From NCBI GenBank assembly GCA_902810755.1, contig CADDYT010000042.1, positions 1 to 45,071 on the forward strand: a DNA stretch of 45,071 nt, in the 5' to 3' direction. Below, one piece after another: positions 32,252-45,071 of the stretch. The translations under genes were made by a program, and so were the position numbers. Position 1 is the stretch's first letter. The number at the start of each line of letters is the position of its first letter. Under the pieces are notes generated by a model. The model did not search any database. It saw nothing but the letters and a program-made list of their open reading frames with translations, and was not told the DNA's origin. This DNA comes from Chloroflexota bacterium (GTDB lineage: Bacteria > Chloroflexota > Ktedonobacteria > Ktedonobacterales > Ktedonobacteraceae).

Positions 32252-33283
32252 GTGTTGCCCTGGTCTACTGATTTCGCTGGACGTTTTGATGAGGTCATTT
32301 TCGAGAGCGAGGCTCTCAAGGGTAATCCGCTCGGCGACCCCTATAAGCGCCCGTTGTGGGTCTATTTGCCGCCCGGCTACGATGAGCAGAAGGAGCGACG
32401 TTATGCGAGCATTTACCTGATTCAGGGGTTGACGGGCCAGCTTGATATGTGGCGCAATCGTGATGCCTTCAGGAAGAATTTTCCTGAAATGGCCGATGAA
32501 CTTTTCGCGAAGGGCGAAGCGCCCCCGTGCATCCTCGTCTGGGTCGACTGCTGGACCTCGCTCGGCGGCAGTCAGTTCCTTGATTCGCCCGGCACCGGTC
32601 GCTATCATACCTATCTGTGTGACGAGATTGTACCCTGGGTGGATGCGCACTATCGCACGCTACCACAGCGCGAGCATCGCGGCATCGCGGGCAAATCCAG
32701 CGGCGGCTACGGCGCGATGGTCACGCCTATGCTGCGACCCGATCTGTGGGGTGGCTTTGCCACGCACGCGGGCGATGCCCTGTTCGAGGTCTGCTATCTC
32801 CCCGAATTTCGCGATTCCGTGCGCACGCTGCGCGACCACTACGAAGGCTCATTCGAGAAGTTCTGGCAGGATTTCCGCTCCCGCCCGGCCTTTGACAGGG
32901 AAAGCGACGGCTCCCTGCTCAACGACTGGTGCATGGCCGCCTGCTATTCCGCCGATATTGACGGTACCATCCACCTGCCCTACGACACAGCGACGGGTAT
33001 GCTCATTCCCGAAGTGTGGGAACGCTGGCTCGCCTGGGACCCCGTGCGCATGGTCCCCCTGCACGCTGCTGCACTCACCACGATGAAGGCCATCTACATC
33101 GACGCGGGCAAGCATGACCAGTTCTTCCTCGATCTGGGGGCCGAAGCCTTCCGCCGCGCCCTCGCCGACATCGGCGTCACCGATGTCTTCTTTGAACTCT
33201 TTGAAGGCACCCACACCGCCATCGAATACCGCTACCCCCTCAGCCTCAAATACCTGGCCGAGCGGCTCTCTCCATCGGAATGA
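32252..33283 (+). CDS. Esterase D/PF00756-type alpha/beta hydrolase
   Basis: The catalytic serine is in GKSSGGYGAM, with the acid probably in DAGKHDQF and the histidine in EGTHTAIEYR; YLPPGYDEQ and IYLIQGL are typical for this esterase family. No signal peptide is present, so it is cytoplasmic. I chose GTG at 32,252 because AAGGAG lies 9 bases upstream; the in-frame ATG at 32,231 would place that ribosome-binding site inside the gene but remains possible. It may hydrolyse an ester or peptide made by the preceding ligase, by context only. Confidence 0.85.
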   Translation: MLPWSTDFAGRFDEVIFESEALKGNPLGDPYKRPLWVYLPPGYDEQKERRYASIYLIQGLTGQLDMWRNRDAFRKNFPEMADELFAKGEAPPCILVWVDCWTSLGGSQFLDSPGTGRYHTYLCDEIVPWVDAHYRTLPQREHRGIAGKSSGGYGAMVTPMLRPDLWGGFATHAGDALFEVCYLPEFRDSVRTLRDHYEGSFEKFWQDFRSRPAFDRESDGSLLNDWCMAACYSADIDGTIHLPYDTATGMLIPEVWERWLAWDPVRMVPLHAAALTTMKAIYIDAGKHDQFFLDLGAEAFRRALADIGVTDVFFELFEGTHTAIEYRYPLSLKYLAERLSPSE

Positions 33284-33472
33284 GCGGTATGAAGAAGGCC
33301 GCCAGTCTGTCATGTTGACGATGCTCTTTCATGGTCTACATGTCATGTTCTTGTTGCTTTTCAACAGTATGGCAGGGGCAGGCAGGCAGAGCTAACTGCT
33401 TGCCTCCTGCTCGCCTTCGTTACTCTCCGTTATTCCCCCAGAGAATTCCGGTAGCGATAGCTGTGGAGGATG

Positions 33473-35785
33473 TCAGACGCCTCTTCCTGTTTTCGTTCTA
33501 TGCGTTCCGTCTATTGACAGATAGAACATACGTTCTGTATACTGGAAGCATGCTACTACAAACGCTGCCTGACACGATGACAAAGCTTGCCCTGGTGGGG
33601 GAAGCGACCGTTCTGGAGCCTGCTGGCGACCGGCCACAGCAGGAGCGGCAGCGCGTGCCATATCAGTCGCGCAGTCTGGCCGAGTGCATTGCGAATGTGG
33701 CGACGCCGACGGGGAAGAAGCCAATTCTGAAGACGATGGTGACAACCAGCCAACTTCGTTCAAAGAAAAGTTTTTAAACGTGAAACCAGCCTCCTGAAGC
33801 CAGCAGATATCACGCCAACTCAGATGGAGGTCCTCAAGCTGTCCTTTCTGGTAGCGTATTCCTTTACCGCTGCCCAGGCCTTTACCGGCTGTTAAGCCTA
33901 AGCTGTCTGCCATATTGCGAATAGCTTTCCATGATCTATCAGGAAACGCTCGCATGATGACCAATCTAAAGCGTTGTCCTGGGTACACCTTTTTTAATAG
34001 CTCAATCTCCTCCTCCGTCCATGCCTTACGTCCCCCGTCTTGCTGCATCATATACGTCTGTTCTGTCCCCCATTCCTTATATCTCCATTCCACCACAACT
34101 CGGAAAAACTTTGTTGACATTTGATCAATAACGATCCGTTTGATCAGCACCGCAAGAATGCTTTTTTTCAATTCATATGGCTTATACGGCCATAACTCCT
34201 CAAGATCTGCTAGCTCCTCCTCTAAGGTTCGTAACGCTTCATCTTCTGTAGATTGTTGCACTTCTCTCTGCTCAGCAAGTAATTCCTCTTTTCTGCTTAG
34301 AACTCTTGCCATGCTCTCTTCCGTCTGCTTTATAACAACAGGAATAGTAAGCCTTTTCAAATTGACTTCCAGGTTTGATAACTCTTCCTCAACGACTCCC
34401 AAATCTCTCTTTATCTTCTCCAGTCGTTGTGCTTTTATTTGGGATCGCTGCGAACGTGCCTCTTTCAAGTCTCCTAAATTTGTTGTTCTTAAATGCGTAA
34501 ACATTCTGTCTACGATCGCGCCCTCTAGCTGTTGCGCGTTCACACATATAAGATAATCATGGACTAATCCACGTCTCACCGAAATAGCATAGCTACCATA
34601 TTGTGTAGCTCTTCCATTGATGCCGCTTCTGATAAAGTACACTGCTCCGTTTTCGTGCGTTGTTTCCGGCCTTAAGAGAGGCTTGAGAACAAGTGATGCT
34701 CGTAAATTTCTCTGTTGCGTGAAGCGGGCAAATACCGGTTTCCCTGTTGGTGTACCGTCTGGTCGGGCTATTTTAAGATGGTCATAGACTAACCAGAACC
34801 TATCTTCATCAATGATTGGCTCGTGGTGATTGTAAATGATCTTGCCTTTGCGCTTTATTGCGCCAATGTTGACAATGTTACAAAGCATATGCTCCAGACC
34901 TCTGCGAGTTAAAGCATATCCTTTTCCCCCTGGCGCTTTTTGCAGCGCCGTCCGAATGGTATAACTATCCTTGTATACCCATTCTTCAAAGTCGGGGTAA
35001 ATGTACTCCCTATTTTCCAATTCTAAACACAAGGCATCCATGTCAAACGCTAATGCTATAAGCCGATCATATAAGGCAAGGGAAACAGCGACATGCGGTA
35101 AGTATGGTATTATCTTGCCATAGGTAGGGCTACCTTCTCGCTTGTCAACGATAAAATTCACGGGAATCGCGCCAAGTCCAGCCCACTGACCACTATCTGC
35201 TGCCAACTGGCGGCGTCTGAGCATTGTTCCCCTGACATGGTTCTCAATATAAGCGGCAGCCATTTGTACTTCCATCCTGAATAACTCAGCATGAGCGGGA
35301 TTGGCAAAATTGTATGTCATGCGCTTACTTGAGATGTGGACATAGCAATCATTCTCCTTGCAAATTTTGATAAAGATGTTGCTATCAATTCTATCCTCAT
35401 CCCTGAAGAGACGATCTACAAACTCTGCAACAACAACCCCTATTTTCCCGCTCTCTATCAAATCACAGATGGTTTTCAATCCTGGCCGTCGATCTATAGG
35501 CCATGTACCAGAAGCGTTCTTAATACTGATATTCCCTTCCGCATCAACTACCTGATTTTCAATAAAGAGCGTAACTCTTCCAGTTGTACCGTCATCCCGA
35601 AAGCCTAAATCTTTGGTGTACGCTAGAAGCATCACCGTTTGTGAGATGTGAGACTGAACATTCTTTACTACCTGATCTTTTGACGATTGCCTGCCATATA
35701 AGCAAGCATCGCGCATCAGATCTATCTGAGGATTATACAACTCCTCTACTGTGTATTCCTTTCTTGCTTTCTTGCGAGCTACCAT
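33473..35785 (-). CDS. Large serine recombinase of the mobile element
   Basis: The resolvase catalytic domain has the nucleophile S34 in LYGRQSSKDQ and downstream RLFRDEDR. It is followed by a recombinase domain, a coiled-coil region (about 470-560) and a Myb/SANT-like helix pair (WTEEEIELLKKVYP onward). ATG at 35,785 is the start, because AAGGAGAG lies just upstream. The gene is clearly more AT-rich than its surroundings up to about 33,760. The last 90 or so codons are GC-rich and antisense to the interrupted radical SAM fragment, so the protein's tail is encoded by host DNA across the junction. It likely integrated the element. Confidence 0.9.
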   Translation of the reverse strand: MVARKKARKEYTVEELYNPQIDLMRDACLYGRQSSKDQVVKNVQSHISQTVMLLAYTKDLGFRDDGTTGRVTLFIENQVVDAEGNISIKNASGTWPIDRRPGLKTICDLIESGKIGVVVAEFVDRLFRDEDRIDSNIFIKICKENDCYVHISSKRMTYNFANPAHAELFRMEVQMAAAYIENHVRGTMLRRRQLAADSGQWAGLGAIPVNFIVDKREGSPTYGKIIPYLPHVAVSLALYDRLIALAFDMDALCLELENREYIYPDFEEWVYKDSYTIRTALQKAPGGKGYALTRRGLEHMLCNIVNIGAIKRKGKIIYNHHEPIIDEDRFWLVYDHLKIARPDGTPTGKPVFARFTQQRNLRASLVLKPLLRPETTHENGAVYFIRSGINGRATQYGSYAISVRRGLVHDYLICVNAQQLEGAIVDRMFTHLRTTNLGDLKEARSQRSQIKAQRLEKIKRDLGVVEEELSNLEVNLKRLTIPVVIKQTEESMARVLSRKEELLAEQREVQQSTEDEALRTLEEELADLEELWPYKPYELKKSILAVLIKRIVIDQMSTKFFRVVVEWRYKEWGTEQTYMMQQDGGRKAWTEEEIELLKKVYPGQRFRLVIMRAFPDRSWKAIRNMADSLGLTAGKGLGSGKGIRYQKGQLEDLHLSWRDICWLQEAGFTFKNFSLNEVGWLSPSSSELASSPSASPHSQCTRPDCATDMARAAAPAVAGRQQAPERSLPPPGQALSSCQAAFVVACFQYTERMFYLSIDGTHRTKTGRGV
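33514..33543 (+). promoter_or_regulatory. Near-consensus sigma-70-type promoter of the interrupted gene
   Basis: TTGACA (33,514-33,519) and TATACT (33,538-33,543) are spaced 18 bp apart. The ATG at 33,550 begins only 6 bases after the -10, so the transcript is probably leaderless. A LexA-type box fills the spacer. Confidence 0.8.
33524..33535. promoter_or_regulatory. LexA/SOS box between -35 and -10
   Basis: GAACATACGTTC fits the Gram-positive-type SOS operator GAACRNRYGTTC perfectly and sits inside a strong promoter, where LexA would block RNA polymerase. The half-sites extend by one base each to AGAAC and GTTCT. The gene downstream should therefore be damage-inducible. Confidence 0.75.
33550..33777 (+). 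pseudogene. 5' fragment of a probable radical SAM gene, interrupted by the mobile element
   Basis: From the ATG the frame encodes about 67 residues: LPDTMTKLALVGEATVLEP, then CIANVATPTGKKPILKTMV and TTS. It then diverges into a short basic tail and a stop. The host-like part resembles the opening of radical SAM proteins, where a similar strand is followed by the iron-sulfur CxxxCxxC motif. Here the cysteines never arrive because foreign sequence begins at about 33,750. The family call is from memory of such N-termini and has moderate certainty. The rest of the gene is not found in the window. It is SOS-controlled, which fits a DNA-repair-linked enzyme. Confidence 0.55.
33750..33780. other. 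Probable left attachment junction of the integrated element
   Basis: To the left, base composition and both reading frames look like host DNA. To the right lies AT-rich recombinase coding sequence. The radical SAM-like frame loses its similarity after AGC at 33,748-33,750. The exact crossover dinucleotide cannot be set without the other junction. Confidence 0.5.
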
Positions 35786-35957
35786 CTGGACTCTCCTTTT
35801 CCGGGCCGTTACTGCTTTGCCCTTTGATGTCAATAGATGCAATATCAGGTGATCTTCCGCGATCATCATATCGGCCGGTTGTTGTCGTTTTTCTCGGACT
35901 TGCCAGGAAAAGATCGACGAGAAGACTACGAAGAAGATTCTTTTCGTTTTCGTTCAT
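35733..35957 (-). CDS. Small protein overlapping the recombinase start
   Basis: A 74-residue frame starts MNENEKNLLRSLLVDLF at an ATG 9 bases after CAGGAG. It overlaps the beginning of the recombinase gene by 53 bases in another frame. It is hydrophilic in its second half and matches no family I recognise. Its upstream position suggests co-expression with the recombinase, possibly as a directionality factor or regulator. Confidence 0.4.
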   Translation of the reverse strand: MNENEKNLLRSLLVDLFLASPRKTTTTGRYDDRGRSPDIASIDIKGQSSNGPEKESPDGSSQESKKGIHSRGVV

Positions 35958-36144
35958 GCTCATCACTCCTGCTCATAAAAGACGGCTTGCTTTTGCTGCC
36001 TTTTATTATAGCAGAAATGATTTATAAGTTTATATTGGGCGTTAGTTTTATACATAATCGTTATATAGCGGCGTTCAGCCTCATGCGAAGTACGAGGGAC
36101 GTATTACATAACAATTATGCATTTCTAACACTTTTTCTCGTGAG

Positions 36145-36243
36145 TCATTTCTCCGACAAAAATTCGTTGGAAACAGAGGCTTCCATCCTTTTTTTCCGCA
36201 GTCTCTTTGCAACCGGCCCATATTCTTCCTTGCCGTAGACCAT
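36145..36243 (-). CDS. Possible 32-residue leaderless basic peptide
   Basis: The ATG at 36,243 follows a very good promoter (36,252-36,280) with only 8 bases between, so translation would be leaderless. The peptide is Lys/Arg-rich (VAKRLRKKRMEASVS). It could be a real regulatory peptide or a decayed gene start; the promoter is better supported than the peptide. The rest of the 35,967-36,410 stretch is AT-rich, with no further gene seen. Confidence 0.3.
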   Translation of the reverse strand: MVYGKEEYGPVAKRLRKKRMEASVSNEFLSEK

Positions 36244-36251
36244 CTTTTCTA

Positions 36252-36280
36252 ACTATAGCATATAAAATCATATTTTTCAA
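36252..36280 (-). promoter_or_regulatory. Leftward promoter of the recombinase unit
   Basis: On the minus strand TTGAAA (36,275-36,280) and TATAGT (36,252-36,257) are spaced by exactly 17 bp. It points toward the small protein and the recombinase. Confidence 0.65.
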
Positions 36281-36329
36281 TGCTTCCTTCTATCTTTTTA
36301 TGCTTCTATGTGCGTAGCCACGTTTCCAT

Positions 36330-36359
36330 TTGACAATATGCACTGAACCGTGCTAAAAT
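36330..36359 (+). promoter_or_regulatory. Rightward promoter of the small HTH regulator
   Basis: TTGACA (36,330-36,335) and TAAAAT (36,354-36,359), 18 bp apart, have a TGC extension just before the -10. With the leftward promoter 50 bases away it forms a divergent pair, as in phage and conjugative-element control regions. Confidence 0.7.
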
Positions 36360-36410
36360 GGGCAAAGAGCATCTATCATTTTCTCTCCTTATATGGTCAG
36401 GAGGATAGCC

Positions 36411-36626
36411 ATGACATTAGCTGAATTAATTGAAGAGGCATTGATGACCAAAACCGAAGTGGCCTCAGAAGCTGGACTTTCGCAGGGGACTGTCTCTCGT
36501 ATGGTCAACGGTCATCCAACCTCACGGCTCTCGGTCAGAAAAGTCTTGGCGGTTCTTAATCGCAAGCTCGAACGGCATATTACGATTGATGAAATTGAGG
36601 GCTTGCAGCTTTCTTCTGACTCCTGA
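36411..36626 (+). CDS. Small Cro/CI (XRE)-type regulator
   Basis: The 71-residue protein contains a helix-turn-helix: MTKTEVASEAGLSQGTVSRM followed by VNGHPTSRLSVRKVLAVLN. The ATG at 36,411 is preceded by AGGAGG at ideal spacing; an in-frame ATG at 36,393 lacks a site. It has no extra domain, as in phage Cro-like repressors. It lies beside the divergent promoter pair and probably controls the recombinase unit and itself. The gene is convergent with the mobilization operon, with a hairpin terminator between them. Confidence 0.85.
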   Translation: MTLAELIEEALMTKTEVASEAGLSQGTVSRMVNGHPTSRLSVRKVLAVLNRKLERHITIDEIEGLQLSSDS

Positions 36627-36686
36627 GAATCTCCAGTGCGACTAGGGCAGCACGCCTGCTGGCACTTCCCATCCTGTTTGATCCCC

Positions 36687-36722
36687 ACCAGGAAGAGCAG
36701 GAATCATTGCGCTCTTCCTGGT
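36687..36722. terminator. Bidirectional hairpin terminator
   Basis: ACCAGGAAGAGC (36,687-36,698) pairs perfectly with 36,711-36,722 around a 12-nt loop. A T-rich stretch follows on the + strand. It lies between convergent genes: the HTH regulator and the coupling protein. Confidence 0.75.
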
Positions 36723-36736
36723 TTGCTTTCCTCTTC

Positions 36737-38530
36737 CTATTCATCTTCATCGAGAAAGAACTGGCGATTCCCTTGCTTAGGGGCCGGAACATCCTGATCA
36801 GCATCGACAATGATGGGGGAATGTGCGGGAGCTGGTGGAGCGGCTGGCGGTGCTGCCTGTTCGTACACGCGCACTCGATGAAACGGCAACCCGACACGAC
36901 GCTTGACGATCCGATCCTGATAATAGGGTCTGGTCTGCACGAGCAGGGGTGCAGTTTTGGCATGCAGCATGAGCATCTCGTCCTCCGCCATGGTGCGCAA
37001 TTCGTCCGGCGTTCGTAACCGTCGTCCAGTCTCGCCTTGCGTCCACGAATCCCGTGCGTCCAGGCCAGACCCTTGCCGGTGATGAGAGTCACTTCTCACC
37101 GTGGTGTTTCCGATACGCCGGCTGTAATATTCGGTTTCTTCCAGCCCTGCTCCAGGCAACAACAGGTGCGTCTGGCTGTTGGTTAAGATGCTTTCGCGTA
37201 CGGCTTTGCTATACTTCTCATCGATCTGGGCAAAACTCTGCACGGCAATGAGCATTCCCACGCCGGTATGCCGCGCGGTGCTGATATAGCCGGAGATGTT
37301 CGGGATGACGCCCAGATCGGTGAATTCATCCAGGTAACACAGGATGCGCCGGGGTAAGCGTCCATCAGGAGCCTGTTCCGCCAGTTCCTCCCAGGTGGCG
37401 AACATCTGCTGCACAAAGCACGCGATGAGCGGCTGGTAGCGTTCGGCGTAGCGGCGCGGCAGTTCCAGGTAGAGAGCCACCGCTCGCTCGGCCATGGCCC
37501 GGAAATCGATCTGGTTGTGCGCCGTCACCGCTTGCACGTTCTCGCCATCCAGTGCCTCAAAGCGCGTGGCCGCCTCGGTCATCGTGCTGCCGATCAGCCG
37601 CGGGTTGCGCTCCAGGTCGTCGAACCACGCTCGGACTTTCTCGCGAATGCTGGTGGCCGGCGTGGTGGTCAAGACTCGTTTGAGGCTCTCGTAGGGCAGT
37701 CCACACAGGATATCCGCCACGCGGCTGAAGGGAGCCTGCGGCTCGGCCACATGCAGGTGCATCATGGTCCAGGTCAGCAGGTGCCGCGCGACTTTGCTCC
37801 AATACTCTTCGGGGCTGTGTCCGGTATTGGCCACCCAGCAGCGCGCAAATTCCTGGGCATCCTCGATACCGCGAATGAAAGCCAGGGGATTGTAGCCCTC
37901 GCTGCGACCGGGATGCTGCGGATCGAAGACCCACACCTCATGCTGCTGCGCCACACCGCCGGCAGTGAGGCGCAGCAATTCGCCCTTGACATCGGGGATG
38001 ACCAGGGAGCGGCTTCCCTGTTCGCGCAAGAGGTTGGGTGTGATGATACGCGCCGTCTTGCCCGCTCCGGTGGGACCGACGAGAAAGACATTGGCCTCCT
38101 GTTGCTCCTCACTCAAAGACACTTCGCGCCCGCCCGCTGTTCCCAGCACGAAGCGAGATTCGGGCGAGCCGGCCTTCTGGCGCCCGAACAGGCGAAGCGG
38201 GTGAGGCAGATGACGGCGGCGCCGGAACTGGCGACTCTCGCGTCTGCCCGCGAGATGGGCCGTGCCATGTGTGGTCAGCTTGTGGGTGCGTGTGTCCACC
38301 TGCATCAGCAGCCACACCACCCAGGCACATCCCAAGACGACGTAGGGCAGTGGCTCGCCCAGGCGGAACGGGGAGGAGTTGACCGAGAACAGGGCGGTCA
38401 GCAGCGCCGTTAGTAATCCACCAGTGGGTGGATGGACCAGTATGGGGTGAGCCACCGGATACACGAAGATGACGAGAGACCCGATCAACGCCACGAGGAC
38501 GATGCCAACCAGGAAACGAGTCCATTTCAT
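36737..38530 (-). CDS. Type IV coupling protein (VirD4/TraG/TraD family)
   Basis: Two N-terminal membrane helices (about 5-28 and 60-77) precede an ATPase domain with Walker A GPTGAGKT (152-159), VIPDVKGELLR and Walker B ILCYLDEF (D401, E402). A VQSFAQIDEKY segment and a Pro-rich acidic tail follow. Coupling proteins recruit the relaxase-DNA complex to a conjugation channel at the membrane. The ATG overlaps the relaxase stop by ATGA. No other type IV secretion gene is in the window, so the element may be mobilizable rather than self-transmissible, or its channel genes lie beyond the right edge. Confidence 0.93.
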   Translation of the reverse strand: MKWTRFLVGIVLVALIGSLVIFVYPVAHPILVHPPTGGLLTALLTALFSVNSSPFRLGEPLPYVVLGCAWVVWLLMQVDTRTHKLTTHGTAHLAGRRESRQFRRRRHLPHPLRLFGRQKAGSPESRFVLGTAGGREVSLSEEQQEANVFLVGPTGAGKTARIITPNLLREQGSRSLVIPDVKGELLRLTAGGVAQQHEVWVFDPQHPGRSEGYNPLAFIRGIEDAQEFARCWVANTGHSPEEYWSKVARHLLTWTMMHLHVAEPQAPFSRVADILCGLPYESLKRVLTTTPATSIREKVRAWFDDLERNPRLIGSTMTEAATRFEALDGENVQAVTAHNQIDFRAMAERAVALYLELPRRYAERYQPLIACFVQQMFATWEELAEQAPDGRLPRRILCYLDEFTDLGVIPNISGYISTARHTGVGMLIAVQSFAQIDEKYSKAVRESILTNSQTHLLLPGAGLEETEYYSRRIGNTTVRSDSHHRQGSGLDARDSWTQGETGRRLRTPDELRTMAEDEMLMLHAKTAPLLVQTRPYYQDRIVKRRVGLPFHRVRVYEQAAPPAAPPAPAHSPIIVDADQDVPAPKQGNRQFFLDEDE

Positions 38531-39150
38531 AAGCTATGCTCTCCTTCGTCGATGGCCCCTGAGAGGGGGTCATGTTCCAACTCCTGATCATGCCCTGCCA
38601 ACATCAGCCCAAGTTCATCCTGCTGATCATATTCTTGCAACGCCAGCTCCAACTGGTAATGAAAGTTGAACTCACTTCGTTCATGTCCTGACTCACGCAG
38701 TTCGCGGTAATCTTGTGGGGAAAGGATCACCGCCGTGGGTTGACCGGTCTCTCGATCCTCTCCGGCCCCAGCCAGCACGACATGCACATGCTCATGGTCT
38801 GTATTGCCGTGGTGAACGGCGTACCAGTGCAACTCTGCCCCCTGGTGCGCTTCAAGATCGGCCATCACCTCGCGAGTCCATGCCTGCCAATCCAACACCA
38901 GCTCCTCTTCCGACGGGGAGAGGACGATCTGATGGTAGCTGACGCGCAGGCTGGTATGCGCCATGATGTCGCCCAGCGCCTCGCGGCGACTCACCACATC
39001 CTCCTCCTTCGAGAAGATAGCGCGGTCTTCCCTGCTCTCGTCCATGTCGCGGCTGCGGTGTTCCAGGTACTTGAAATGTGCGGACAGATGGGAGGCCGCA
39101 GCTGCGCGGTTGGCGGTTCCGCCTTTGACATAGTGGCCTTTGGCAATCAT
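38527..39150 (-). CDS. Small HUH relaxase
   Basis: The metal-binding HUH motif is HHGNTDHEHVHVVL (H114, H121, H123), typical of conjugative relaxases. A tyrosine near the N-terminus (Y28 in FKYLEHR) is the candidate nucleophile. At 207 residues it holds only the nuclease domain, without the helicase, primase or long C-terminal region of larger relaxases. It would nick the element's oriT and lead the strand to the coupling protein. It is third in a four-gene operon with overlapping or nearly touching genes. Confidence 0.85.
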   Translation of the reverse strand: MIAKGHYVKGGTANRAAAASHLSAHFKYLEHRSRDMDESREDRAIFSKEEDVVSRREALGDIMAHTSLRVSYHQIVLSPSEEELVLDWQAWTREVMADLEAHQGAELHWYAVHHGNTDHEHVHVVLAGAGEDRETGQPTAVILSPQDYRELRESGHERSEFNFHYQLELALQEYDQQDELGLMLAGHDQELEHDPLSGAIDEGEHSL

Positions 39151-39153
39151 GGC

Positions 39154-39423
39154 TTAATGCTCCAGGTCCAGGTCTTGATCCAGGTCTGGGGCCAGCTCTG
39201 GCTCGGTCAGATCAAGAGAGGGCAACCAGTCGGGATCGAGATCGGGCAGCTCCAACCAGGTCGCCTCGAGAGGCGGTTCTTCCAGCCACTGCGGGTCGAG
39301 GACGGGTTCTTCCAGCCCTTCCGGCTGCACCAGATCAGCCGGAAGGGGATCATTGACTTCGGCTTCAATCCATGGTTCCAGGTCTGCATAAGTGATCGAA
39401 GCATCCAGCGCGAAGCCGTCCAT
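39154..39423 (-). CDS. Strongly acidic small protein without Lys or Arg
   Basis: An 89-residue protein with about 27 Asp/Glu, no Lys or Arg, and one His at the end. It carries a loose repeat around Trp-Leu (DPQWLEEP, EATWLELP, DPDWLPSL). Its start overlaps the stop of the RHH gene (TAATG) and its stop is 4 bases from the relaxase gene, so it is certainly part of the operon. Charge and size resemble DNA-mimic or anti-restriction proteins, or an acidic partner of a DNA-binding protein. No family is recognised. Confidence 0.7.
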   Translation of the reverse strand: MDGFALDASITYADLEPWIEAEVNDPLPADLVQPEGLEEPVLDPQWLEEPPLEATWLELPDLDPDWLPSLDLTEPELAPDLDQDLDLEH

Positions 39424-39932
39424 TACTTAGCCTCCTTTGGCAGAAGTTCCACCTCCTGACTGGCGGTACTGCGTGCAGCCAATTCCTGACCAGCAGCGGC
39501 TTTGGCGTGTTCATACGCTTCGTGAGCAAACTCGGTTCCCAGCGTTTTCGACATCAAAGCAAACACAAGGCGGCGTGCGATACCGGTATCGCGCATGACG
39601 CGGACAATGAGCCTAGCAAGCCGGTTTTCGCTGGTGCGGGCCGTGGTTTTCATGGCCTCGACGACCTCCACACGCATATCCTCCCGCAGATCGCTGCGAA
39701 GCTGCGCCAGATACTTGCGCATCGTAGTGTCGATGCTCTCATGGATCACCGGTAACGACTGGCGCTCCACCTGCTCCCCGGCTCGCTGTGCCATGGCTTG
39801 TCGCAGAAGCGTCTCGATCAGGGTCGTGCGATCCATTCCCTCCTTCTTACATTGATCAAGAAAAGCCCGCGCCTCGGCGCTAATCCAGACGTTCAATTGA
39901 TATCTCCCATTGGATGATGACGGTTTTGGCAT
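39423..39932 (-). CDS. Ribbon-helix-helix relaxosome accessory protein
   Basis: Residues 10-55 fit a ribbon-helix-helix DNA-binding domain (YQLNVWISAEARAFLDQCK then DRTTLIETLLRQAM), followed by a helical region to residue 169. Such proteins (MobC/TraY/NikA-like) bind oriT, help the relaxase and repress their own operon. The ATG at 39,932 has an excellent AAGGAGG site. It is the first gene of the mobilization operon, downstream of the promoter at 39,981-40,009. Confidence 0.8.
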   Translation of the reverse strand: MPKPSSSNGRYQLNVWISAEARAFLDQCKKEGMDRTTLIETLLRQAMAQRAGEQVERQSLPVIHESIDTTMRKYLAQLRSDLREDMRVEVVEAMKTTARTSENRLARLIVRVMRDTGIARRLVFALMSKTLGTEFAHEAYEHAKAAAGQELAARSTASQEVELLPKEAK

Positions 39933-39980
39933 GCAACCTCCTTTCTGCCGTCTTGGTCATCTGTTCACATTCTGGTTGAT

Positions 39981-40009
39981 AGTATACCAGCAGGCATACA
40001 GCATGTCTA
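39981..40009 (-). promoter_or_regulatory. Mobilization operon promoter
   Basis: On the minus strand TAGACA (40,004-40,009) and TATACT (39,981-39,986) are 17 bp apart, about 50 bases before the RHH gene. The 39,933-40,240 interval holds no gene I can support; it is a natural place for the RHH operator and possibly oriT. Confidence 0.65.
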
Positions 40010-40197
40010 TGTATTCTTTTAAAAAGATGTAGAGAACATACATACAATGAGCAGGCTTGTCAGGGGAGATGAGCCGAGCATTACATATATTTTCTAGCAA
40101 CGTTGGCCTTTCTTTATCTTGCATTACCCCACGCAACTCGCCTGGGGTGGTGGTTAGAGGGTGGTTTATCTTGTTCTGGTGGCACTCACCTTTACTC

Positions 40198-40216
40198 GCT
40201 CACCTATGAGGTGAGC
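40198..40216. terminator. Perfect hairpin downstream of the helicase gene
   Basis: GCTCACCT and AGGTGAGC pair around a 3-nt loop, 25 bases past the helicase stop. There is no T-run, so termination is unproven. It could equally be part of an oriT-type inverted repeat beside the mobilization operon. Confidence 0.4.
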
Positions 40217-40240
40217 CAGCAGACAGCGTGTGCAGTCCAG

Positions 40241-41887
40241 CTACGGCGACGGGTTACGCAGGGTCTTTCTGAGCAAACAAAAGGTGATGGCGTCCGAGGC
40301 CATCCGTTTGGTCCAGCGGTTGGCGACAGCCTGTTGTGCAAATTTTGGGAACAGGCGCCGAAGCGTCGCGAGTTGTTTGTCCGTAGCAGGCTCATCCAAC
40401 CACGGTGCCTCTTTATTGGAGAACGTCGCGTATGCAATCTCTCTGGTAGACTCATGTACGAGCGCCACTTGCTGCCGAAGGGGCAGATACTCTTGAGCAA
40501 TCCAACAACTCTCCTCTTTCTGCCCACCTTGCTCATCTCCTCTCCTATAAAGACGAGAGCGATAGAGGCCACTCCCTTCGGGATCACGCTCAACGATCGC
40601 CGTAATCTCCCTCGTTACCCTGGCAAAATAGCCATGTCGATAGGCCACCCAGCGATAGTGGGATTGACCGATGGGATCAAGCAGAGAAAGACCAGATTCG
40701 ACATCGGCCCCAAGGATCGCTTTCAGGATGGGATCAGTCGTGCGCGCACGCTCGGTTTCTTCTGCTGTTCTTGTTTCTGCTTTGCTTATTCCTACGACAT
40801 GGGGTAAGACCACCTGGCTCGAAGTATCGGGCTGATTTCCCATCACATCAATGAGCAGGCAATCCTGTTTGCCCTCAGCCCGGCGTGTTCCTCTGCCTAG
40901 CATTTGGATGTAGAACGATGGGGAGAGCGTCGGGCGAGCAATGACCAGAGCAGCAATTTCTGGAAAGTCGAAGCCCTCGGTGAGGAGCGCGCAATTGCAC
41001 ATGACTTGAATATGACCAGTGCGCCAGCTCTCGAAGAGGTGTTCACGCTCACGCCTGCCAGTGGTAGCCGACACGAATGCCGCCTTCAGGCCACATTGAC
41101 GAAATGCTTCCGCCAGCTGTGCCGCGTGCTCCACGGTGATGGCAAACACAAGTGTCGGTCGTTGTCCTATCATGGATGTGACCTGCCGAGCGATCTCCTC
41201 GGTGATAGCGGAGTGGAGGAGTTCATTCATGAGTGCCTCTTCGACGTAATCTCGCTCACCGGCTCGACGGGTCGTCGCCACTCTTGCCAGATCGATGTTG
41301 ACATGGAGCGGCTTCCATGTGAGCGGAGCCAGCCAACCGGCGCGTGCCATATCTGGGATCTCTCTCTCATAGGCACAGGTTGGAAGCAGCGACAACATAC
41401 TCCGCGTATCGCTCCGGTAGGGCGTAGCCGTAAATCCGATCGTGACCACCGGCAGTTCCTCGTCAATGGCTTCAACACTGGTGATGATTCGTTCGTAAGC
41501 AGAACCTGGAACGGCGTGGTGAGCTTCATCTATGAGGATTGTTGCAATCGGCTCCTCGCTGGCTTCGAGAAGTGCTTGCAGATTGGCAGGAGTCAGCGAC
41601 TGTACCATAGCAACGACTGCCGGCGCTGCCAGCACTCTCCGACCTTGCATAAGCAGCCCTGCATCCACCCCCGCTTGATGCAGCGTCTCGAGTAATTTCA
41701 GAGCTACCTCCTGCAGGTGGATGAGAACGAGAACCCTGCCCGCTTCCAATTCCTGGGCAGCGAGAGCAGCAAGAATGACGCCTTTGCCCACGCCAGTTGG
41801 CAGATGGATATAGAGACGGGTTTCCCCATCCTCCATCCGGCGAGTCGTATGCTCGATGGCTAATCGTTGGTAATCTCGTAGTATCAT
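40241..41887 (-). CDS. DEAH-box superfamily 2 helicase
   Basis: The 548-residue protein has the SF2 motifs: a Q-like RDYQ, Walker A TGVGKG (31-36), ILIDEAHH with D120-E121-A122-H123, GFTATPYRSD, and motif VI QMLGRGTRRA. A C-terminal 170 residues end in ATDKQLATLRRLFP...WTKRMASDAI, a tail I associate with element- and plasmid-borne helicases. It has no HD nuclease domain and no Cas3 features, so it is not a CRISPR helicase. It probably unwinds DNA in element replication, repair or defence. Confidence 0.88.
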   Translation of the reverse strand: MILRDYQRLAIEHTTRRMEDGETRLYIHLPTGVGKGVILAALAAQELEAGRVLVLIHLQEVALKLLETLHQAGVDAGLLMQGRRVLAAPAVVAMVQSLTPANLQALLEASEEPIATILIDEAHHAVPGSAYERIITSVEAIDEELPVVTIGFTATPYRSDTRSMLSLLPTCAYEREIPDMARAGWLAPLTWKPLHVNIDLARVATTRRAGERDYVEEALMNELLHSAITEEIARQVTSMIGQRPTLVFAITVEHAAQLAEAFRQCGLKAAFVSATTGRREREHLFESWRTGHIQVMCNCALLTEGFDFPEIAALVIARPTLSPSFYIQMLGRGTRRAEGKQDCLLIDVMGNQPDTSSQVVLPHVVGISKAETRTAEETERARTTDPILKAILGADVESGLSLLDPIGQSHYRWVAYRHGYFARVTREITAIVERDPEGSGLYRSRLYRRGDEQGGQKEESCWIAQEYLPLRQQVALVHESTREIAYATFSNKEAPWLDEPATDKQLATLRRLFPKFAQQAVANRWTKRMASDAITFCLLRKTLRNPSP

Positions 41888-42452
41888 CTTCGTTCCATTC
41901 CTTTTTTAGAGAGAGCTAATAATCCAGTGCCCTACGTCTAAACAATTGGTGACGTAAATCCCGCGGGCTGCGCAACGAAATGGTAGGCAACCGGTGGGTA
42001 AATATGTCCGGCGTGGGCAACACGTCTGCTCTCAGGATAGGCGATTGCTCCTGAACCGAGCCTGAACCGAGCCTGAACCGGGCCTGAACCGGGCCTGAAC
42101 CGAGCCTGAACCGGATGCATGGTCGTGTTTCAGACAGGCATTGTTTGAACTATCTTCCTGAAAAATGCCCTGAACGAGGAGAATCTGTTCGGTGTCTCAG
42201 GCAGTTCAGAGACGACAACAAAGGAAATACGATATGTTTAGAAGGTACCCTACCCTTCTAGAACTCCTGTGAAACATCTCTTTATAGAAGCTTGTCTTCC
42301 TTCTCGTCGTGTCCAACAAGCGAATCTGGGCCTACAAGTTCAGGATCGGTTCAGGGTATGCCAGGACTATAGTTCAAGGTCACGGATGGACTATCTCTCG
42401 CAAAGTGGTCTTGTATCGCAAACACCCACGCTGTAAACGACAAGAGGAAAGT
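41888..42452. other. Gene-poor interval with iterons and hairpins
   Basis: No convincing gene lies here. Besides the tandem repeats described separately, TAGAAGG (42,239-42,245) pairs with CCTTCTA (42,254-42,260), and repeat-like sequences recur at 42,169-42,179 and, inverted, at 42,338-42,355. The layout is what one expects of an origin or partition/transfer site rather than coding DNA. Confidence 0.5.
42050..42115 (+). repeat. Six perfect-length tandem 11-bp iteron-like repeats
   Basis: The unit CCTGAACCGRG occurs at 42,050, 42,061, 42,072, 42,083, 42,094 and 42,105, with only the last two bases varying. Spacing is exactly one helical turn. An inverted copy (CCTGAACCGAT on the minus strand) lies at 42,345-42,355, followed at the same 11-bp step by a partial copy. 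Helically phased repeats of this kind are typical of plasmid replication origins or partition sites. No replication initiator gene is recognised in the window. Confidence 0.75.
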
Positions 42453-42690
42453 GGCTCTCCGGCATCTCCTGGGCAAAGCTAAGCTGATCGAGCAAGGACC
42501 CGGTGTCGTAACAGGTCAAAACCCGCTTGTCCATAGGATTGTCTCTTCAACAGCTTGAGCCGATGGATCTGGCCCTCGACTTGCCCCTGGCTCCAAGCAT
42601 AGCTGAGTGCATTAAACACAGCAGATTGGTCGCGTCGGATCCCTGAGACAAAACTGCCCAGTTCGGGCACTCCACTCAGGAAAGTGGCTC
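42445..42690. repeat. 13-bp direct repeat flanking the transposase remnant
   Basis: AGGAAAGTGGCTC occurs at 42,445-42,457 and again at 42,678-42,690. The first copy runs into GGCTCTCC at 42,453, which looks like an ISL3-type terminal repeat 26 bases past the transposase stop. The second copy marks where the remnant's frame ends, suggesting a deletion between short repeats. Confidence 0.4.
42479..42688 (-). pseudogene. C-terminal remnant of an ISL3-family transposase
   Basis: About 70 codons remain and read like the end of ISL3 transposases: SGVPELGSFVSGIRRDQSAV, the hallmark WSQGQVEGQIHRLKLLKRQ, and a final FDLLRHRVL before the stop. Upstream the frame is closed by a TGA at 42,689-42,691 and the remaining 300 or so codons are absent. 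The remnant ends 29 bases from the degenerate CRISPR repeat, so an old IS insertion and deletion probably truncated this end of the array region. Confidence 0.8.
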
Positions 42691-42717
42691 ATCCTCGAAA
42701 AGGTATTGGTGGTGAAA

Positions 42718-42754
42718 TCGGCAGTACCCTCAATCGGACCTCTATCGGTGCAAC
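42718..42754 (-). repeat. Degenerate terminal CRISPR repeat
   Basis: This copy has several substitutions relative to the consensus (for example CAATCGGACCTCTATCGGTG in place of CAACCGGGCCGCTATCGGCG). A 36-nt spacer separates it from the first intact repeat. Decayed repeats normally mark the leader-distal end, which puts the leader on the right. Confidence 0.85.
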
Positions 42755-42790
42755 GCCTATCGTCGGACTGATCTGGGTCATCCAGCACTG

Positions 42791-44809
42791 CTTGCAGTAC
42801 CCTCAACCGGGCCGCTATCGGCGCAACCCCAGTGCTGAATGACGAGGATAACAACGGTAACAACTTGCAGTACCCTCAACCGGGCCGCTATCGGCGCAAC
42901 TTGCCGGATTTTTAGGCTTCCACAGCCCTGCGGCAATCTTGCAGTACCCTCAACCGGGCCGCTATCGGCGCAACCTCTCATCCTGCTCATCATGGCTTTC
43001 GGTGTGTATGACCTTGCAGTACCCTCAACCGGGCCGCTATCGGCGCAACTGGCCTGGCCTTCCAGGCCAAGCACCTCCTCGATGACTTGCAGTACCCTCA
43101 ACCGGGCCGCTATCGGCGCAACTGTGGAAAGACTTCCGCGTGCAGCAGACGCACAAGTCTTGCAGTACCCTCAACCGGGCCGCTATCGGCGCAACGTGGA
43201 ATGAGGTGGATGGGTGAAAGGATAGCAATGATCTTGCAGTACCCTCAACCGGGCCGCTATCGGCGCAACGTCCTTGAGTTGGTTGGCGCTCATCACCCTG
43301 AAGCCTTGCAGTACCCTCAACCGGGCCGCTATCGGCGCAACTTTGGTTGCGTCGGGTTATCCGTTGCCTGTGCAAAGCTTGCAGTACCCTCAACCGGGCC
43401 GCTATCGGCGCAACTTCACCTGCGCTATGCTCATCAAGCGGAAGCGGGACCTTGCAGTACCCTCAACCGGGCCGCTATCGGCGCAACACCTGCTCGGGCG
43501 ACAGATCATAATAGAAGCTGTGCTTGCAGTACCCTCAACCGGGCCGCTATCGGCGCAACCTGGCAATTCACGGACAGATACCAGACGCCAGGAGTCTTGC
43601 AGTACCCTCAACCGGGCCGCTATCGGCGCAACTGGCAGGTAGGTATGCGATGCCGTGACATGCAAAGACTTGCAGTACCCTCAACCGGGCCGCTATCGGC
43701 GCAACCTGTGTAGTGCCTACATGCAAGATAGAAGATGTGAACTTGCAGTACCCTCAACCGGGCCGCTATCGGCGCAACGCGTTTGCAGCAAAGCCGAGGC
43801 CGAGGCCCAGATCATTCTTGCAGTACCCTCAACCGGGCCGCTATCGGCGCAACTTATATAGCGGCGCGCTCGTCTACCCCTGCGCTGATGGCTTGCAGTA
43901 CCCTCAACCGGGCCGCTATCGGCGCAACAGTGGACGCTCTACATCACGCTCACAGACGGCAATCTTGCAGTACCCTCAACCGGGCCGCTATCGGCGCAAC
44001 CTTGCCAGCGGAGCATTTTCGCCAATGGCAGCAATATCTTGCAGTACCCTCAACCGGGCCGCTATCGGCGCAACCGCTTTTTGCCCTAATGCTCTCGCAG
44101 AGACAGGCAACCTTGCAGTACCCTCAACCGGGCCGCTATCGGCGCAACATGGAGGCTACTATAGCAATTAGCGCCATCTTCAATCTTGCAGTACCCTCAA
44201 CCGGGCCGCTATCGGCGCAACTGGTTGAAACCATACACCCGGCCAGCCCAGAAAGCAAGCTTGCAGTACCCTCAACCGGGCCGCTATCGGCGCAACGCGC
44301 GGCGGCGGCGGCGCCGGAAGTCGGAGCGCTGACTTGCAGTACCCTCAACCGGGCCGCTATCGGCGCAACGCCTATCATGCGCGCCGCAAGATCTTGACGG
44401 TCAAACTTGCAGTACCCTCAACCGGGCCGCTATCGGCGCAACTGAGGAGGAAGAGGAGGAGGAGAACGTGTGGCCCCAGCTTGCAGTACCCTCAACCGGG
44501 CCGCTATCGGCGCAACTCTCAACTATTCGACTTCGACATGAGACAAGGCAGACTTGCAGTACCCTCAACCGGGCCGCTATCGGCGCAACTCACCGTCTCC
44601 GTCGCCATCACATCAATGCTTGGCGCCTTGCAGTACCCTCAACCGGGCCGCTATCGGCGCAACTCCGCTCGCAAAATGGCGAGCAGAACTTTCCTTCGAT
44701 CTTGCAGTACCCTCAACCGGGCCGCTATCGGCGCAACAAGGAACTGCTCCGCTTGCAACTGTTGCAATGCAACTTGCAGTACCCTCAACCGGGCCGCTAT
44801 CGGCGCAAC
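42791..44809 (-). CRISPR. CRISPR array, 28 identical 37-nt repeats
   Basis: Twenty-eight apparently identical 37-nt repeats begin on the + strand with CTTGCAGTACCC and end with CTATCGGCGCAAC. Spacers are 35-38 nt and all differ. A GCCG-CTAT-CGGC stem-loop lies near the centre-right of the repeat. With the decayed repeat at 42,718, transcription is inferred to run leftward, where the repeat reads GTTGCGCCGATAGCGG and onward. No cas gene is in the window, so the type cannot be assigned. The perfect repeats and unique spacers suggest the array is or recently was active. Confidence 0.98.
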
Positions 44810-45071
44810 CCGCGTATGAGCGCAATGGCAAAGAGTCGATTTATGACCTTTGGAGCAATTCAGGCCGTTTCTTGCGCTTCTCATCGCGGCGTTTGCACCT
44901 CGTTTTCATCTTATCACGCTCTGCAAGAGGTTTTCCATCGCAATAGGCTTTTTGCTGAAAAATGGGGGGTGATTTGCGAGGCTTGTTCTCTCAAAAAAGA
45001 GGGCAATCTGACAGAATCCTGTCCTCATTCTCGCTTTTCTGATGCTTTGCTGTCGCTTACCTGAGCGATTT
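44810..45071 (-). promoter_or_regulatory. Probable CRISPR leader region
   Basis: The 262 bases right of the last intact repeat contain no gene I can support. Read leftward, they include A-rich stretches and a TAAGAT element within the GATAAGATG at about 44,912. Leader assignment rests mainly on the degenerate repeat being at the opposite end. The window ends here, so cas genes could begin immediately beyond. Confidence 0.5.

Follow-up and report, generated by a model that had tools for sequence, protein, structure and literature searches.

Does a CRISPR (clustered regularly interspaced short palindromic repeats) array that stands next to an integrated mobile element belong to that element, or to the chromosome beside it? 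The question is raised by 45,071 nucleotides of Ktedonobacteraceae DNA (contig CADDYT010000042.1 of assembly GCA_902810755.1, phylum Chloroflexota), here called the window, in which a serine recombinase gene, mobilization genes and a helicase gene are followed by an array close to the right end. An earlier note, made from the sequence alone, had placed the array inside an integrated mobilizable element. On balance, and with modest confidence, we also place it there: the array is most likely cargo of the element because no right junction appears before it, and this placement is favoured because a related 67-kb element also carries other defence cargo.

Results

A serine integrase abuts an interrupted radical SAM gene

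On the host side of the left junction, positions 33550..33750 of the plus strand encode the first ~66-67 codons of a radical SAM (S-adenosylmethionine) gene. The assignment comes from blast against Ktedonobacteria relatives: the encoded N-terminus is 55-76% identical over 61-67 residues to proteins from 7 of the 47 genomes of the class Ktedonobacteria, and in all seven of these relatives the gene is uninterrupted at this point. Five of them read at 384-387 residues without a stop; the other two lie close to the ends of their contigs and, starting from fragment residue 6 or 7, give 351 and 380 residues. One full-length relative (P0084) matches TIGR03916, a putative DNA modification/repair radical SAM protein, at 1.9e-76, which is below the curated cut-off. 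Comparison with the seven uninterrupted genes puts the end of the radical SAM coding sequence, and thus the left junction (attL), at ~33745..33752, because the residue following two threonines is alanine in all seven relatives and serine in the window.

The open reading frame (ORF) that meets this junction encodes a large serine recombinase, or integrase (33473..35869, minus strand; Resolvase domain, 3e-6), of which the element-coded part spans about 33752-35869. The window therefore has a site-specific recombinase at the junction with an interrupted host gene, one of the marks of an integrative and mobilizable element (IME) or integrative and conjugative element (ICE), and the claim of a serine recombinase at a left junction inside a host gene is borne out by the 67-codon match and the uninterrupted relatives. 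Relatives P0001-P0012 of the recombinase are 66-83% identical to it, and P0016 and P0019 are 74 and 69% identical over part of the protein. Since the ten full-length relatives P0001-P0010 (684-709 residues, 66-81% identity) stop at or shortly past the junction point, the final ~91 codons of the ORF (33473-33750) probably arise from reading on into host DNA, on the strand opposite the radical SAM fragment. They lengthen the integrase ORF while the element is integrated; after excision the protein would have a different C-terminus. Sequence comparison suggests that three of the ten close relatives (P0005, P0006 and P0007) share the insertion site in other hosts. By eye, the tails of these three past a conserved GW (SSP, SSPSSSK and SSPSSSVLEG...) resemble the antisense radical SAM junction, and the tails of the remaining seven show no clear fit to it.

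The search of the window for the remaining radical SAM sequence was negative: beyond the N-terminal match, tblastn of the seven proteins gave only chance-level matches (best E 0.054), so the earlier statement that the missing half is absent before the window ends holds, and the 3′ part did not turn up between 36 and 42.7 kb, where it would have separated the array from the element. The window thus does not contain the right junction (attR), at which the gene would resume, and may stop short of it. An att-core search right of 39.9 kb returned one 9-mer only, among the radical SAM matches in the protein collection the 120 best of 7990 all cover 98-100% of the query and none looked attR-derived, and a synteny comparison of gene order around the seven relatives gave nothing useful.

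A related element is about 67 kb long

The extent of such an element can be read from a relative in Dictyobacter aurantiacus (genome G002; loci L060, L061 and L082), whose integrase is 45% identical to that of the window and ends inside ureC. The 5′ ureC fragment joins the integrase at ~C2:2056956 and the 3′ fragment begins at 1989464, which leaves ~67 kb between them. This stretch contains the integrase, a GmrSD restriction gene, the genes for MobC, relaxase and type IV coupling protein (T4CP), VirB4, PrgI, and an intact ureC frame of 589 codons (L082:4704-6473) ~240 bp from the far junction. Because this related element is ~67 kb long, it is plausible that attR is out of view in our case: were the size similar, one would not expect attR within the 11.3 kb visible here, and the window may hold no more than the leftmost sixth of the element. 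The two elements are alike in their related integrases, their MobC-relaxase-T4CP module and their insertion within a conserved gene, but the D. aurantiacus element has another target gene and its own VirB4/PrgI, GmrSD and intact ureC frame, and no CRISPR array was found in it.

Two further observations concern this element. The ureC copy that it seems to carry (L061:11865-13127, L082:3679-6473) would leave the host with a urease alpha gene even though the resident ureC is split. A third ureC piece (170 bp, L078:1762-1931) lies ~9.8 kb to the other side and stops at the same crossover, which suggests a second, tandem element.

The mobilization module recurs in other Ktedonobacteria

The earlier note listed a regulator, a mobilization operon, a helicase, iterons and the array to the right of the recombinase, and all of these features exist. 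The four mobilization genes are transcribed back toward the integrase. A VirD4-like T4CP (36737..38530, minus strand; T4SS-DNA_transf, 4.2e-53) has relatives of 35-48% identity at nine Ktedonobacteria mobilization loci, and a compact MOBP-like relaxase (38527..39150, minus) has relatives of 46-57% identity at the same nine. The relaxase profiles score below their curated cut-offs (Relaxase 1.5e-4, RlxS 5.8e-10); we nevertheless accept the identification because of the company the gene keeps at nine loci and because of its conserved residues, the H, N-T and H-x-H residues being invariant in 8 of 8 aligned sequences. A small unknown protein of 89 residues (39154..39423, minus) has a counterpart beside the relaxase at one of the nine loci (G021, 42% identity). 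The last gene of the operon (39423..39932, minus) had no family match above cut-off in the family libraries and is called a MobC-like accessory protein from its position and its conservation, with 28-42% identity at all nine loci. The predicted relaxase and coupling protein together supply another mark of an IME or ICE.

Relaxase relatives occur in 13 of 400 genomes of the phylum. We compared the nine strong loci, which come from six genomes (G002, G021, two in G026, two in G028, G033 and two in G036), and left out a tenth, weaker one (G005:C8; 39%, E 3.8e-26). MobC-like, relaxase and T4CP matches are present at all nine; at seven loci MobC and relaxase lie at most 0.6 kb apart, at the other two the distance is 2.6 and 8.5 kb, and at one locus of G026 (G026a) the T4CP match is in two pieces. 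Relatives of PrgI and VirB4 were found near the module at three of the nine (G002, G033 and G036b). At two of the nine the contig is short (3.4 and 8.1 kb), so genes of a type IV secretion system (T4SS) could be out of view there. The PrgI and VirB4 of D. aurantiacus had no match in the window. Given the three loci with VirB4/PrgI and the ~67-kb length of the D. aurantiacus element, a T4SS could lie beyond the window edge and the element could be conjugative; the earlier wording that it has only a mobilization set is therefore not established. The comparison describes a Ktedonobacteria element family with an integrase and a MobC-relaxase-T4CP module, sometimes with T4SS genes, able to insert in conserved genes.

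Between the integrase and the mobilization genes lies a small helix-turn-helix (HTH) regulator of Cro/C1 type (36393..36626, plus strand; HTH_3, 6.4e-7). The GC content of the integrase-HTH part (33751-36740) is 43-45%, that of the mobilization operon 60% and that of the 33.5 kb to the left 58%; on these values the element looks mosaic. To the right of the operon follow a RadD-like superfamily 2 helicase (40241..41887, minus; ResIII, 6.9e-23; NF053632, 2.3e-49, below cut-off), which had no match at the nine related loci, and 11-bp direct repeats, or iterons (42050..42114, plus), with five exact copies of the 10-mer GCCTGAACCG. These stand at 11-bp spacing where 0.15 copies would be expected, and five were reached in 0 of 100 shuffles; the iteron pair, sought in 171 loci, gave no result. 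The identity of 33000-45071 as a known plasmid is not supported: there was no megablast match in 72,556 plasmid records. The T4CP matched 3670 plasmid records, all below 60% identity, and an IMG/VR search with the T4CP alignment gave one weak partial locus among the matches listed.

The array belongs to a type I-A-like family

The array itself consists of 28 perfect 37-nt repeats (42791..44809, plus strand) with spacers of 35-38 nt, the first starting at 42755, and a degenerate terminal repeat with seven mismatches at the trailer end (42718..42754, plus). The 28 spacers share no similarity with one another. With its regular identical repeats, unique spacers and degenerate end, the array is genuine. 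As the degenerate copy stands at 42718 and the other repeats are perfect, the trailer is on the left and the leader on the right (44810..45071, minus), the leader being cut by the window end; transcription would run leftward.

Repeats that start, as those of the window do, with CTTGCAG-A-CCT occur in genomes G032, G035 and G028, where they have the same base as the window repeat at 20-25 of 37 positions in an ungapped comparison of class loci with Cas1. Arrays of the same look are present in G036, a genome without a Cas1 match. The 262 bases right of the last repeat are similar to the leaders of G032 and have their best blastn match among the loci compared just past a G032 array (26 of 30 bases, E 0.002). 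For two of seven leaders the local alignment scores (20.0 and 14.5) were higher than in any of 500 block-shuffles (maxima 12.5 and 13.5); for two more, 9 and 5 of 500 shuffles scored as high, and the remaining three show no excess (G036_b, G035_a and G035_b, with 130, 281 and 291 of 500). Genes linked to the G028 array match Cas3, Cas8a (PADLOC, 3.1e-61), Cas7/Csa2, Cas5a (2.4e-55), Cas6, Cas1, Cas4 and a WYL regulator; this operon was scanned against the libraries, and those of G032, G035 and other loci were recognised by similarity to it. By similarity of repeat and leader we assign the array to the type I-A-like CRISPR-Cas loci of Ktedonobacteria. An exact or near-exact repeat was not encountered: the window repeat with up to three mismatches gave no result in the 47 class and 400 phylum genomes, which are overlapping sets.

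The loci most like ours (G032:C6, G035:C1 and G028:C670) share the 37-nt CTTGCAG-A-CCT repeats and have the leader on the same side, most clearly in G032, but their cas genes are adjacent and the stretches read gave no match to the integrase, relaxase, T4CP, MobC or helicase of the window. In G032, cas1 begins ~540 bp past one array and a WYL ORF ~450 bp past another, and the window offers 262 bp. Because the leader faces the window edge, cas genes may begin just past 45071. The two G036 arrays (L168:11517-12583 and L169:9404-10590) appear to be orphans and are followed on the right by leader-like sequence. A three-copy repeat in L088, with a period of 46 bp, lacks the form of a CRISPR array and was rejected.

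The joint between the mobilization genes and the array

Between the mobilization half and the array lies the C-terminal remnant of an ISL3 transposase (42479..42688, minus strand; DDE_Tnp_ISL3, PF01610, 1e-5; 46% identity over 65 residues to a full-length ORF in L001); like the leader, it is absent from the feature list of the earlier note. Since this insertion sequence (IS) remnant ends ~30 bp before the oldest repeat of the array, the joint is, as judged from sequence, a rearrangement scar. The scar is the starting point of an alternative explanation, in which the CRISPR locus is chromosomal, and an IS-mediated deletion or inversion that joined the element to the array trailer at the ISL3 remnant cost the element its right portion with attR and the host the 3′ part of its radical SAM gene. 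Such an origin would fit the report of 601 transposase genes in Ktedonobacter racemifer (PMC3236041), and also the occurrence of the same array family apart from the genes of this element, with cas genes (G032, G035, G028) or without them (G036). It requires, however, a deletion or inversion of unknown length, and an IS remnant is no proof of deletion because transposase genes also occur within the D. aurantiacus element (L060:5873-7285, DDE_Tnp_1) and near the integrase of D. vulcani (an ISL3-like ORF at 2.5 kb). We regard the chromosomal origin as possible, and less probable than carriage by the element.

Several further observations weigh, like the scar, against placing the array inside the element. 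Its right junction is not in view, the size model draws on the one element of D. aurantiacus, and only their position links helicase, iterons and array with the element. The nine related mobilization loci and the D. aurantiacus element have no array in the stretches read (456,203 bases in 25 loci); the same test does detect the array of the window. Eight cas and WYL proteins of L135 had no match in the window, which on the leader side ends at 45071. Array stretches of the same repeat family gave no match to the integrase, relaxase, T4CP, MobC or helicase of the window, their single match being a short HTH one in L169 (4.6e-4). Finally, composition gives no clear answer: in trinucleotide usage, ranked against 80 segments of the chromosome, the integrase stands at 79 and relaxase-MobC at 80, with the helicase segment at 68 and the T4CP at 51. 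The idea of an array inside the element thus keeps its main support, the missing radical SAM remainder, but the far junction is out of view, the ISL3 remnant stands between, and the same repeat family lives elsewhere. The earlier note would have abandoned the idea if element-free relatives had the same CRISPR locus; what was observed is the same repeat family, with different spacers, at loci that gave no match to the integrase or mobilization module.

The joint could also be an artefact, with two unrelated genomic pieces joined near 42.7 kb in a metagenomic or draft assembly. No independent sequence confirms the joint: IMG/VR gave no match to integrase patterns and did not contain the exact repeat, and an integrase scan of genome contigs returned two distant loci only. 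Two observations bear on a chimera from the other side, weakly either way. The remnant is short and divergent, and no repeat listed between the two sides exceeds 40 nt, the listing giving 20 direct families from at least 60 and 25 inverted pairs from 128. We consider an assembly error improbable, and retain carriage by the element as the preferred explanation.

Spacer targets

One of the 28 spacers found a candidate target. Spacer 23 (44370..44405, plus strand) matches a multi-copy gene of G033 at 31 of 36 bases, with E 3.5e-4 for that genome in a search of 47 genomes, and four weaker copies of the target, at 83%, are present in the same genome. By eye, four codons differ between spacer and gene, two of them silently. 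The gene has no Pfam family at gathering score, so to name it a transposase would be a guess. The array had no match in the phage collection, and against plasmids only chance-level matches (best E 0.05 among 20 of 36 records listed), which in these 20 lie at ~44273-44320, in or around the GC-rich spacer 22. Compared with the window and 39 loci, no spacer had E < 0.005 among the matches listed.

Discussion

If the array is element cargo, the parts of the window could work together as follows. The window would hold ~11 kb from the left end of an integrative element of Ktedonobacteria, which the serine integrase would have inserted into a conserved radical SAM gene; the junction is observed, and the activity of the enzyme is suggested by its family. 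The T4CP-relaxase-MobC module would let the element be mobilized or, if a T4SS lies further right as in some relatives, conjugate by itself. CRISPR RNAs would be made leftward from the leader of the type I-A-like array and trimmed by Cas6, and a Cas8a/Cas7/Cas5a/Cas3 effector, as relatives have it, would come from genes just past the edge or, in trans, from the host. The outcome would be an element and host shielded from other mobile DNA. A fuller version is tentative, and we think it rather unlikely as a whole: a serine-integrase ICE in a DNA-repair-type radical SAM gene would carry a complete I-A-like CRISPR-Cas locus, with cas genes just past the edge, and move adaptive immunity between hosts, within a family of elements able to supply the gene they disrupt in intact form.

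Should the array lie inside the element, Chloroflexota and an I-A-like system would join the conjugative and mobilizable elements known to carry CRISPR, and these transposon-rich bacteria would have a route for exchanging immunity. The earlier note called such an arrangement unusual, which overstates the case, since CRISPR on ICEs and IMEs has been published (PMC8743540, PMC9841420). It is already established, and what would be new here, if confirmed and as far as our searches reach, is the host group and the subtype. In the literature searched, we found no paper that pairs Ktedonobacteria with an integrative and conjugative element; in the available part of PMC8627217 a serine recombinase occurs with an integrative and mobilizable element, and a CRISPR array only in a reference. 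A paper on Thaumarchaeota (PMC6563490) also names all three.

Three published systems allow comparison, as far as the accessible parts of the sources describe them. Among plasmid arrays without adjacent cas genes, 207 orphan arrays were surveyed and use of host Cas proteins in trans was proposed (PMC9071438); the array of the window may not be an orphan, there being only 262 bp after its last repeat. In ICEs and IMEs of ESKAPE bacteria, CRISPR spacers on islands with both integrase and relaxase were read as inter-element conflict, but the host groups are different and the subtypes named as preferring mobile elements are I-C and IV-A3 (PMC9841420). CampyICE1 is an ICE of 70-129 kb with a degenerated type II-C CRISPR-Cas9 system, 63.7% of whose spacers are predicted to target plasmids, and similar ICEs of other Campylobacter species are described without CRISPR (PMC8743540). 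CampyICE1 is, as the element of the window would be, an integrated element with CRISPR arrays, but CampyICE1 is complete, has Cas9 and has mostly plasmid targets, whereas the window has the left part of its element in view and an array of an I-A-like family.

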